Shown: in pieces, positions 56,204-61,581 of the stretch
Position numbering within the stretch: position 1 is the stretch's first letter
Layout of the letters: the number at the start of each line of letters is the position of its first letter
Source: Nitrospirales bacterium
GTDB taxonomy: Bacteria; Nitrospirota; Nitrospiria; Nitrospirales; UBA8639
Assembly (NCBI GenBank): GCA_031315865.1
Contig: JALDRJ010000002.1
Span: forward strand, 434,001-498,000
Length of the DNA: 64,000 nucleotides
Direction: 5' to 3'
The notes under the pieces: generated by a model
Told to the model about the DNA's origin: nothing
What the model saw: the letters and a program-made list of their open reading frames with translations, nothing else
Databases searched by the model: none
Made by a program: the position numbers and the translations under genes

Positions 56204-56279
56204 TGGCGTGCCCGGAGGGAGTCGAACCCCCAACCTCCTGATCCGTAGTCAGGTGCTCTATCCATTGAGCTACGGGCAC
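56204..56279 (-). tRNA. tRNA-Arg (anticodon ACG), CCA encoded
   Basis: A 76-nt tRNA on the minus strand: acceptor GTGCCCG, D arm TAGCTCAATGGATAGAGC, anticodon stem CCTGA with loop CTACGGA (anticodon ACG), T arm with GGTTCGACTCC and 3' G-CCA encoded. The ACG wobble base is expected to be edited to inosine by TadA. Its frame mimics a protein (VAQWIEHLTTDQEV), a well-known false call. Confidence 0.97.
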
Positions 56280-57772: not shown

Positions 57773-58015
57773 CCTTTTCCACCAATGGAGTCAAGTCTAA
57801 AGTTTAATAGTTTTAGCTGTTTTGACAGTTTCAAAATTTTTATTGAAATCAGATCTATGTATAAAAAATTCTCGTTTTGACTCGAATTTTTCAGGCTTCA
57901 CCCAAAGGCCCAAGAGTCACCTAGGCCTTTTGGGGAATAGTGAATGGATTCCCGTCTCATGTGTACTGAAAGCTCATCCATTCATCTTGCTCATTCATCC
58001 CTCAGGGAGGTCTCC

Positions 58016-58315
58016 ATGACTATCACAGAACATATTCACCAAGACCGGTTAGAGGTGCGATTCAAAGGAATTCTCGATCATACGGTGGGACCGGCCTGTG
58101 AACGCGCCATTCGGCATGCCCATGCACTGGGCCACAAACGGCTTCAACTCAACCTCGCGGATGTCACGGCTGTAGAGAAGGTCAGCTTAGGCACGCTCTG
58201 CTTTGCGCTTCATACTGTCCGACAACTTGGAATCGAAGGCACCGTCTTGAACGCTCCAGATGACATCAAAACCATTCTGTCTGAACTGGACAGTACCGCG
58301 ATTGGCCGGTGTTAA
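58016..58315 (+). CDS. STAS-like protein with altered phosphorylation site
   Basis: A 99-residue STAS-type domain: RLEVRFKGILDHTVGPACE (11-29), then LQLNLADVTAVEKVSLGTL (43-61). The position of the canonical Asp-Ser-Ser/Ala-Gly reads Glu-Lys-Val-Ser, so the phosphorylated Ser is replaced by Lys and the domain is unlikely to be switched by a serine kinase. The ATG at 58016 has a good GGGAGG site; the longer frame does not. It is convergent with the caspase-FGE gene, 11 bases apart. Confidence 0.78.
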   Translation: MTITEHIHQDRLEVRFKGILDHTVGPACERAIRHAHALGHKRLQLNLADVTAVEKVSLGTLCFALHTVRQLGIEGTVLNAPDDIKTILSELDSTAIGRC

Positions 58316-58326
58316 ATATCTGGCCG

Positions 58327-60480
58327 TTACTTTACGCTTTTCGCACATCGAAACCCTGTTTGATCATCGGAATTTTCGGGAGGTTGTGAAGCACGGGTTT
58401 TGATCGAGTGATAGGTATACCAAGATCCACCCCGTTTAACTTTTTCAGTCCCTGTTGCCGGACCTTGAGGATTCTGGGAAGGACTTGCATGATAATAGCG
58501 AAGTTCATACCAATCCGCCGTCCATTCCCACACGTTGCCGGTCATATCATGGAGTCCCCAGGGATTGGGGTCATAGGAGCCAACCAGCGCCGTGCGCTCA
58601 TACCCGTCATCATAGCCAGGGAAACTCGGTTCAACTTGAAAAACAGTGTTTGCGTATGCATCAGCCATGTTGCCTACCCGGCGCGTGCCTGGAGCGTCAC
58701 TCCCCCACCAATGTTCTGACTCTGTTCCCGCGCGCGCAGCATATTCCCACTCCGCTTCCGTGGGAAGCCGCTTTCCTGTCCATCGGCAATAAGCCTCAGC
58801 ATCATACCAGGACACTTGGACGACCGGATGTAAGTCCAACCTCACGTCCGACTGACTGTTTGAACCCGAAGGTCGCTTCCATGTAGCCTTTGGAACTTCT
58901 TCTATCTCCCATGTCGTGCCGGAAAAAAAGCCCGTTGATTTGACCAGCGCCGAGGCGGTGCCTTTCTGACCGACGGTGCTCTGATAATTTTCTCCATCGA
59001 CAAACTTTTGAAAATCCCGGTTCGTCACTTCATGCCGATCCAAATAATAGGCCGGCAGGGTGACTCGATGCCGTGGAGCATAATCGGCATTGCGGACTGG
59101 CAGACAAAACTCGACTTTAAAAATGGAGTCCCACTCACACACCTCTTCCGGCGCAGAGCCCATCCAGAATTCGCCTTGTTCGATGAGCACCATGCCCTCC
59201 GGCGCTTTTCCAATCACAGTGGTTATATCAGCGGGCAAGGCAGGTCGCTGTGGACGCACACGAACTTCCCGCACTGGTGCAGACGGATCGTTCTGGACCT
59301 GATCAAGGTGCACGTCAGCCTCCCTTAACCCTTCGAAAGCCTGCAAAGCATCTGGCCGATGAGGATTTTCATCGGGGAAATCTTGCAAAAACTTCGAGAG
59401 TGCTGAACGACGTTCATGCTCTGGGATCACGGTCTGCCTAACATAGGCTTCGACGGACTGCCAGGCCTGCTCCAGATTGGCAAAATACTCCGATCGCTTC
59501 TCGAGATTTCGATACGTCTCGAGGTTAACCGGAGCTATCGCATCAGCTTGCTGCGCACGACCCAAATCACCAACCGCATGTGCCAATGGCAAACGATTAT
59601 CATACCGCCCCTCGATCGACGGATGTTGGCTGCTCTTCGTACTGGCCTTGACCAGCCGATACGTGTGATCGAAGAGTTCTCGTAATTCGACGATCCCATT
59701 GCGGTTTGTATCGGCCGATCCTTCCAGTCCGGTCAATAAGGCACAGGTAAACGCCCCATGTCCACCACAGAATTGCCGGCCCTCTTGGGAAAACTCTGCG
59801 GCGGTCGAAGATGACATTACAGCCACACCATCCTGAGCTTGTCCCATGGCCTCGAGCAAGCGATTAATATCGGCAGCTCCAGCCGACCGTCTGGTCAACA
59901 TCGTCTGTGAAGCGGCAAAGGCTCCAGTATGACAGGCGTCGAGCAACAACACGATTTTCCTCGCCTTGCTGCGCTCTATTTGTCGAATCAAATCATGTCG
60001 GCTAATCCCTTGCGCCTCCGGCAGGTTCGGATCAGCCTCATGCGTGAGAAAATAGAGGTCTTGCCCACTCGAGTCCAAAAGCCCATGCATTGCCAAAAAG
60101 AGTACGACCAAATCTTCCGGTTCCGCACGGCGTAACACTTCCCTTACCGTCTGCAAAAAACCCCCACGCGTCACTTGTTCATTTACCAAGACCTGAAAGT
60201 GATCCGATGGAATGTGACTCGTAAAATGCCTAACGTAGAACTGGTGCAAGGCAGTGGCATCATCGTCGGCATATTCAAGCGTCAAACCAGCATGCCGGTA
60301 GATCGAGACTCCCACAAACACGCCCCACACTGAACCAATCTCTTCGCCAGTGCTCGGTGAGGCCAGAATGCCTCGCTCATCGGCATAGAGCGGTGTTGTC
60401 CCGAGCACGATCGCGCAAAAGAACGCAAGGCAGATGCCACAATCAGACTTGCCGCTCCATCGTTGAAAAGAGACTTCCAT
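58327..60480 (-). CDS. Exported caspase-like (C14) protease fused to an FGE/sulfatase-modifying-like domain
   Basis: A 717-residue protein. A signal peptide (about 14-33, ending PLYA) is followed by a caspase p20-like domain (about 50-290) with the catalytic His132 in LAMHGLLDSSG and Cys183 in LLLDACHTGAF. A linker (300-420) leads to a domain of the formylglycine-generating-enzyme fold (about 425-717): PEGMVLIEQGEFWMGSAPEE, YYLDRHEVTNRDFQKFV, RLPTEAEWEYAARAG, NVWEWTADWY and the final TGFRCAKS. The cysteine pair that makes true FGE active is absent (RGGSWYTYHSIKTR), so this domain is likely a binding module. Metacaspase-FGE fusions exist in other bacteria, but exported ones are unusual. Confidence 0.88.
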   Translation of the reverse strand: MEVSFQRWSGKSDCGICLAFFCAIVLGTTPLYADERGILASPSTGEEIGSVWGVFVGVSIYRHAGLTLEYADDDATALHQFYVRHFTSHIPSDHFQVLVNEQVTRGGFLQTVREVLRRAEPEDLVVLFLAMHGLLDSSGQDLYFLTHEADPNLPEAQGISRHDLIRQIERSKARKIVLLLDACHTGAFAASQTMLTRRSAGAADINRLLEAMGQAQDGVAVMSSSTAAEFSQEGRQFCGGHGAFTCALLTGLEGSADTNRNGIVELRELFDHTYRLVKASTKSSQHPSIEGRYDNRLPLAHAVGDLGRAQQADAIAPVNLETYRNLEKRSEYFANLEQAWQSVEAYVRQTVIPEHERRSALSKFLQDFPDENPHRPDALQAFEGLREADVHLDQVQNDPSAPVREVRVRPQRPALPADITTVIGKAPEGMVLIEQGEFWMGSAPEEVCEWDSIFKVEFCLPVRNADYAPRHRVTLPAYYLDRHEVTNRDFQKFVDGENYQSTVGQKGTASALVKSTGFFSGTTWEIEEVPKATWKRPSGSNSQSDVRLDLHPVVQVSWYDAEAYCRWTGKRLPTEAEWEYAARAGTESEHWWGSDAPGTRRVGNMADAYANTVFQVEPSFPGYDDGYERTALVGSYDPNPWGLHDMTGNVWEWTADWYELRYYHASPSQNPQGPATGTEKVKRGGSWYTYHSIKTRASQPPENSDDQTGFRCAKSVK

Positions 60481-60651
60481 TGGACAACGCCCTTAAAAAC
60501 GACCGAGAATTTTCCGGAAACCCGGAAGAGATGGTGCGTGCGTATTGTGACGCACTCATGAAACATCGTCAATCATCTCAAAAGTTGGAAACCCTAAGAT
60601 TGACTCTATGTCGCGCGACTGGGGAGACAGCAAGAAAAGGAGCGAGAAAAT

Positions 60652-61581
60652 CTAAGAGGGAACGGCATTCAAGAACGAGTGTTCAGCCATGTCGACGACA
60701 TGCCGAATGTCTTCATCATTCCCGAGATTCATCTGAAAAAATGACGCGTATTCAGGAATAGCTTCGGCGATGTTCGAGAGGATCGTCACGAGATCCTGCG
60801 GAGTCAGGGCAAAATACTGTTGACCGAGAATCAGCAACTCATGAAGTCGCTGCTCATCCGTGGGATCACACCACAAGTCGGCTAACCGGCCAGAGATCAT
60901 CACACATACGACAATCATTTGATGTTCGTCGGACGCTTCAGCCAACACGACATCATGGCTCCCACGAACAGCAACACGCATCACATCTGGCAATTCCCAC
61001 ATTTCGGCAAGCCAACTTCCGACTTCGCTATGATCGCTGCCGAAACGTTCCCGTTCATATTGTTGAAGCAATTGGTGATTGGAGCCCGCATGGCTGTAAA
61101 TTTCCCCGTACTCGCCGCCAAACACTTCACTGAGGACCAACATACCCAAATCCTGCAACAGCGCAGCGAGGAATATTTCTTCGTAGTGGGGCACTTGCGC
61201 CCACCTGCCGAGGATCCGCGCGGCCACACTGGACAAAATGGAACGATGCCAATATCGAGTCTGGTCGAATGACACGCCCTGCTTCTTCTTTAGATCGCGA
61301 TACAAGGAAAAACAAAAGGCCAACGTGGCAATGGAGTTCATGCCTAATAATGTCACGGCTTGCGTCACAGTCGTGACTTTATGTCGCGCCCCGCCGTAAA
61401 AGCTCGAATTGGCGACATTCAGGAGCTTCGCGACAAAAGATGGATCTTTACTGACCGTATCTGCCATTTTTTGACAGTCGACCGATTCGTCTCGACACAT
61501 CTGCAGGACTTGTAGCGGAAGACTGGGAATGGCCGGCAATGTCTTGCAATTCTTGATGCGCTGCAGCAGTTGCTGATCCAT
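60652..61581 (-). CDS. HDOD-domain signalling protein
   Basis: A 309-residue HDOD protein: the domain spans about residues 10-210, with LPAIPSLPLQVLQMCRDES (14-32), VANSSFYGG, TVTQAVTLLGMNSIATLAFC and later LLQDLGMLVLSEVFG. HDOD proteins occur in c-di-GMP and two-component networks, but lack HD hydrolase residues and have no known reaction. It lies upstream of the caspase-FGE gene on the same strand with 171 bases between. Confidence 0.9.
   Translation of the reverse strand: MDQQLLQRIKNCKTLPAIPSLPLQVLQMCRDESVDCQKMADTVSKDPSFVAKLLNVANSSFYGGARHKVTTVTQAVTLLGMNSIATLAFCFSLYRDLKKKQGVSFDQTRYWHRSILSSVAARILGRWAQVPHYEEIFLAALLQDLGMLVLSEVFGGEYGEIYSHAGSNHQLLQQYERERFGSDHSEVGSWLAEMWELPDVMRVAVRGSHDVVLAEASDEHQMIVVCVMISGRLADLWCDPTDEQRLHELLILGQQYFALTPQDLVTILSNIAEAIPEYASFFQMNLGNDEDIRHVVDMAEHSFLNAVPS

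Follow-up and report, generated by a model that had tools for sequence, protein, structure and literature searches.

The gene analysed here encodes a 717-aa protein in which a caspase-like protease is joined to an FGE-fold domain. Our favoured reading, towards which we lean with modest confidence, is that of an accessory exported sensor-protease from a modular family, in which ligand binding by the FGE domain would switch on the caspase. Both domains are present, the protease residues are intact and the cysteines needed for formylglycine formation are absent; effectors have been exchanged recurrently among the relatives, and signal-peptide-like N-termini are conserved.

The reading frame that the earlier note had described is real. 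It occupies positions 58327..60480 of the window (the whole stretch of 64,000 nucleotides that was analysed) on the minus strand, as do the other features of the window given below unless stated otherwise, and Pfam recognizes a C14 and an FGE-sulfatase domain in it. A likely ribosome-binding site, AAGGG (60490..60494), lies 9 nt ahead of the ATG. The protein is organized into a signal-peptide-like N-terminus, the C14 caspase, a helical linker and the FGE fold. According to a hydropathy scan and the sequence itself, the N-terminus (residues 1-33, MEVSFQRWSGKSDCGICLAFFCAIVLGTTPLYA, 60382..60480) has a hydrophobic stretch at residues 14-28 followed by a cleavage-like motif (...PLYA/DE). The linker (residues about 320-397, 59290..59523) consists of three predicted helices with an AlphaFold pLDDT of mostly about 50-73.

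Hydropathy reveals an equivalent segment after the start codon in all seven caspase-FGE proteins and in seven of eight trypsin-FGE proteins, L159 being the unclear one. Judging from these N-termini, the site of action of the protease is probably extracytoplasmic, as had been proposed. Export is not a special trait of this protein, however. All five C14 homologues of the window's genome look exported or lipid-anchored, with signal-peptide-like or lipoprotein-like N-termini (G000:C2 1542155, 1900344, 1782473 and 1895114; window 59611-60321), and Asplund-Samuelsson et al. reported N-terminal signal-like helices in 46 metacaspases. The TIR-FGE proteins begin with a cytoplasmic TIR domain; a membrane helix precedes the FGE domain in L161 and L206/L238, and none does in L164 and L183/L227.

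A pair of cysteines in the FGE domain can be set beside these topologies. Cys448 and Cys459 (59104..59139) sit in an insert after MGS and possibly form an extra disulphide. The pair is retained by the clade members with a signal peptide or membrane helix (about 22 proteins) and is absent from the two TIR-FGE proteins without a membrane helix, a distribution that appears compatible with an oxidising compartment. The absence from both cytosolic cases may represent a single evolutionary loss. One protein (L230) has the pair and no visible signal peptide, and is a possible exception. We also considered the Cys565-Cys712 type of pair as a topology marker; it does not track topology.

The caspase domain (Peptidase_C14, residues 54-290, 59611..60321) is matched by Pfam with an E-value of 2.6e-13. 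Because the first full-length AlphaFold model gave low confidence in this part, it was refolded with its own alignment, which raised the pLDDT to 88.5. Foldseek matches the resulting model to MALT1, Arabidopsis metacaspase 9, Geobacter GSU0716 and yeast Yca1, in support of the p20 fold assumed before; when the caspase part was compared by sequence with the PDB on its own, no meaningful match emerged. The intact motifs claimed for the catalytic residues are borne out by the alignment: His132 (60085..60087) and Cys183 are invariant in 39 of 39 homologues. The protein thus has the caspase-fold p20 with a His-Cys dyad that is characteristic of C14 orthocaspases and metacaspases, and its caspase domain is probably an active protease.

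In metacaspases the S1 pocket is acidic, and Asp95 of TbMCA2 (PMC6426788) is the counterpart of Asp74 (60259..60261), a predicted S1-pocket acid that is invariant in the 39 aligned homologues. The equally invariant Asp181 of the Asp181-Ala182-Cys183 motif (59932..59940) would be the second acidic residue of the pocket. Since both positions, assigned by motif after PMC6426788, match the acidic S1 pocket of metacaspases, cleavage after Arg or Lys is predicted. A flexible loop with Arg197-Arg198 (residues 189-201, 59878..59916), of low pLDDT where the rest of the model is confident, is a candidate site of self-cleavage.

The second domain (residues 428-714, 58339..59199) is a complete FGE/SUMF1 fold, as had been claimed from the sequence. 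Pfam FGE-sulfatase (E 1.8e-62), a phmmer alignment to human FGE (E 5.5e-46) and Foldseek matches to the human and Streptomyces FGE structures (TMt about 0.81-0.84) all agree. The fold of a formylglycine-generating enzyme is therefore present, but its copper-binding catalytic Cys pair is not. The lost site lies at residues 684-698 (GGSWYTYHSIKTRAS, 58387..58431), as seen in the alignment with human FGE and with relatives. The description of this pair as replaced by Tyr, Thr and Ser was correct as to the absence, but rough in wording: C336 of human FGE corresponds to Thr689, and the segment bearing C341 is missing. Cys712 (58345..58347) is the likely disulphide partner of Cys565 according to the human FGE alignment, and we take this pair to be the equivalent of human FGE Cys218-Cys365.

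Among 126 distinct FGE-domain sequences, 52 have both catalytic cysteines and 71 have neither. All effector-fused FGE domains examined belong to the latter kind, so that loss of the pair accompanies the recruitment of the domain into fusion proteins. Judged by these sequences, the loss is not peculiar to the caspase-FGE gene but typical of FGE domains fused to effectors. A binding module is a better description of the domain than an enzyme, in line with the earlier proposal.

The same domain order does occur elsewhere, but among 296 Nitrospirota genomes we obtained no other full-length match to the protein. The best identity elsewhere in these genomes was 37% for the caspase part and 57% for the FGE part. 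The nearest FGE domains (57–58% identical) are carried by a trypsin-like protease in three genomes of the same genus, G241, G411 and G412, the latter two being assemblies with 7-8% contamination. In the FGE tree the window's domain groups with this trypsin trio (support 100/99), and the effectors need repeated changes: five for five caspase rows, six for eight trypsin rows and three for four TIR rows. One tight clade comprises a caspase (L158), a trypsin (L159) and a TIR protein with membrane helix (L161), the FGE domains of the latter two each being 80% identical to that of L158. That close relatives carry the same FGE domain on different enzymes suggests interchangeable sensor-plus-effector proteins with a role outside the cytoplasm. 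The tree of the caspase domains requires four changes for the seven FGE-fused caspases, with several rows being long branches; the sister group of the window's caspase in this tree consists of caspases located at the C-terminus of long proteins. Another caspase homologue of the window's genome (L241) is a WD40 protein.

Several further loci were seen in the course of these searches. The three same-genus genomes share a cluster consisting of a TIR gene with membrane helix, an exported trypsin-FGE gene and an exported trypsin-PEGA gene (L155:10760-15438, L223:3303-7839 and L224:92-4769), which may constitute a membrane-spanning TIR/protease system. The TIR gene of this cluster is absent from the window's genome, except for a TIR match of 28%. 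That genome also holds, at L173:6871-8121 (G000:C2 about 34.9 kb), a caspase fragment (VVVYFPGHG...HGAFTY) followed by an intact FGE domain, by its sequence a decayed caspase-FGE fusion. In G141 a second caspase-FGE gene, apparently split by a frameshift (L157:9786-11599), adjoins the intact copy. A 1346-aa protein found at L163:2352-6389 and L240:4722-8759 contains a membrane helix and ends in an FGE domain; its N-terminal 1000 residues are without clear Pfam match.

An HDOD gene lies upstream on the same strand, as claimed (60652..61581, Pfam), at a distance of 171 nt. A STAS-domain ORF on the plus strand (57944..58315), 11 nt away, does converge on the gene, but its description as degenerate is not established, since the frame is open and its 25 bits exceed the Pfam STAS cut-off of 22.6. 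Neither neighbour proved to be a conserved partner. The HDOD-miaB block is retained in two genomes of the same genus (G204 and G241) that are missing the caspase-FGE gene; HDOD and STAS were therefore rejected as operon partners, and the caspase-FGE gene is to be regarded as accessory. We found no conserved operon partner for it. A tRNA-Arg (ACG) gene is located about 2 kb away (window 56204-56279, minus strand).

We also considered whether the protein is the variable protein of a DGR. The only reverse transcriptase match in the window's genome (L014, G000:C2:1508860-1509528) has the motif QGxxxSP, with SP rather than SQ, and by this motif is not DGR-like. A blastn search of the genome with the 3' segment of the gene did not return a second copy, although a diverged template could escape blastn. 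The C-terminal segment, which would be hypervariable in a DGR target, is conserved among same-genus relatives. With this conservation and no sign of a DGR, a sensor of diversified antigens is unlikely here.

From these data we infer a protein that is secreted, binds a ligand, is activated by it and acts on a substrate, perhaps in a stress or conflict setting. The N-terminus would direct its export through the inner membrane. In the periplasm or on the surface, a ligand would be bound by the FGE-fold domain, whose origin lies in the FGE family, and the helical linker would relay this event to the caspase domain and activate it. The caspase would cleave after Arg or Lys, perhaps first in its own Arg-rich loop. 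More broadly, one FGE sensor lineage would have been joined repeatedly to different effectors: extracytoplasmic C14 or S1 proteases, and cytoplasmic TIR domains that may or may not be accompanied by a membrane helix. The FGE domain might also merely tether or target the protease.

The protein could instead be a protease for housekeeping or quality control in the periplasm, similar in function to HtrA, whose FGE domain serves for substrate binding or anchoring and has no link to sensing, conflict or cell death. Consistent with this, its same-genus counterparts are HtrA/trypsin-like proteases on the same FGE lineage, their presumed ligand face is conserved, and every caspase homologue of the window's genome looks exported. 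However, the patchy presence, with no full-length orthologue in the phylum genomes, and the repeated exchange of effectors, TIR included, fit an accessory sensor-effector module better, and we consider the housekeeping role rather unlikely. A wider view, in which Nitrospirota possess a repertoire of extracytoplasmic receptors built by recombining one FGE lineage with caspase, trypsin and TIR, for periplasmic sensing akin to innate immunity but with no need for NTPases or DGRs, seems doubtful to us; that the proteases of such a repertoire would be placed outside the membrane and the TIR inside is an equally doubtful part of it.

It is less probable still that the FGE domain recognises a molecule of an invader, be it a phage or a rival cell, and that the cell is killed or lysed by the protease from within its periplasm. 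A role as conflict sensors has been proposed for FGE/FGS domains that go with caspase, trypsin or TIR effectors (PMC8195603, PMC10907252), PADLOC reports its caspase model with an E-value of 2e-9, and the trypsin-FGE gene adjoins the gene for TIR with membrane helix in the three same-genus genomes. Yet the PADLOC match is limited to the caspase part, so we did not assign a known defence system; the neighbours are HDOD and STAS genes, most of the known systems that have been proposed operate in the cytosol, and there is no STAND NTPase, MoxR, adapter domain or DGR. Finally, we regard it as highly improbable that the FGE domain is still an enzyme (an oxidase similar to EgtB, SenA or PvdO) acting on a periplasmic substrate whose product the protease processes: PF03781 takes in iron and copper enzymes, and the NCBIfam models for SenA, EgtB and PvdO match the domain with E-values of 4e-18 to 3e-30, but their 66-106 bits are far under the equivalog cut-offs of 360-500 bits, which argues against a known EgtB, SenA, PvdO, GldK or active FGE, and the copper-binding cysteines are missing.

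If the sensor-effector reading is true, caspase-type proteases could be ligand-controlled enzymes outside the bacterial cytoplasm, and the swapping of effectors (caspase, trypsin, TIR) on a common sensor lineage would allow a direct comparison of what is sensed. The findings also argue against the published idea that such fusions make formylglycine.

The fusion is not an unstudied family. The caspase-FGE architecture is known, with the Bac_PepC14/FGE-sulfatase fusion found in 33 of 671 bacterial metacaspases by Asplund-Samuelsson in 2012 (PMC3501461) and archaeal examples reported in 2019 (PMC6426788). FGE-fold ("FGS") domains have likewise been put forward as the sensing part of conflict systems whose effectors are caspase, trypsin or TIR domains (PMC8195603), within work from 2020 to 2024 on caspase or other effectors with FGE/CLec sensors (PMC7159879, PMC8195603, PMC10907252). 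In the literature open to our search, which leaves many subscription papers outside, there was no account of exported proteins in which an exchangeable protease is fused directly to an FGE domain. New in our data are the lack of a full-length orthologue in the sampled phylum, with trypsin on the nearest FGE domains instead; the five separate changes for caspase-FGE on the FGE tree, and caspase, trypsin and TIR with membrane helix on near-identical FGE domains; the apparent signal peptides throughout caspase-FGE and in all but one of the trypsin-FGE proteins, with TIR predicted to be cytoplasmic; and a Cys pair present in no effector-fused FGE domain, yet in 52 of 126 relatives.

The Bac_PepC14/FGE-sulfatase metacaspases (PMC3501461, PMC4933709, PMC6426788) have the same two domains in the same order, and some have likely N-terminal signal-peptide helices. 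In those papers formylglycine formation is ascribed to the FGE part, whereas here the cysteines are absent and relatives swap the protease. With the FGS-domain conflict sensors (PMC7159879, PMC8195603, PMC10907252) the protein shares an FGE/C-lectin-fold sensor and interchangeable effectors of the same kind, and the FGS sensor with caspase, trypsin or TIR effector that defines FGS-centred systems (Kaur 2021) is present. Those systems, however, work with NTPases (STAND or others) and adapters, and in many cases with DGRs, unlike the direct and apparently exported effector-FGE fusion described here; Pfam returned no match to a STAND or other regulatory NTPase, an EAD or a Death-like adapter, either in the protein itself or in those neighbouring genes that were scanned, EAD models being only partly represented in Pfam. 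The cyanobacterial DGR variable proteins (PMC7517822) also combine an orthocaspase N-terminus with a C-lectin-fold C-terminus, but they have a DGR, of which there is no sign here. Closest of all in their FGE domain are the same-genus trypsin_2-FGE proteins (G241, G411, G412), which have the same FGE lineage and a signal-peptide-like N-terminus, but carry an S1 instead of a C14 protease and lie in a conserved neighbourhood with the TIR and trypsin-PEGA genes.
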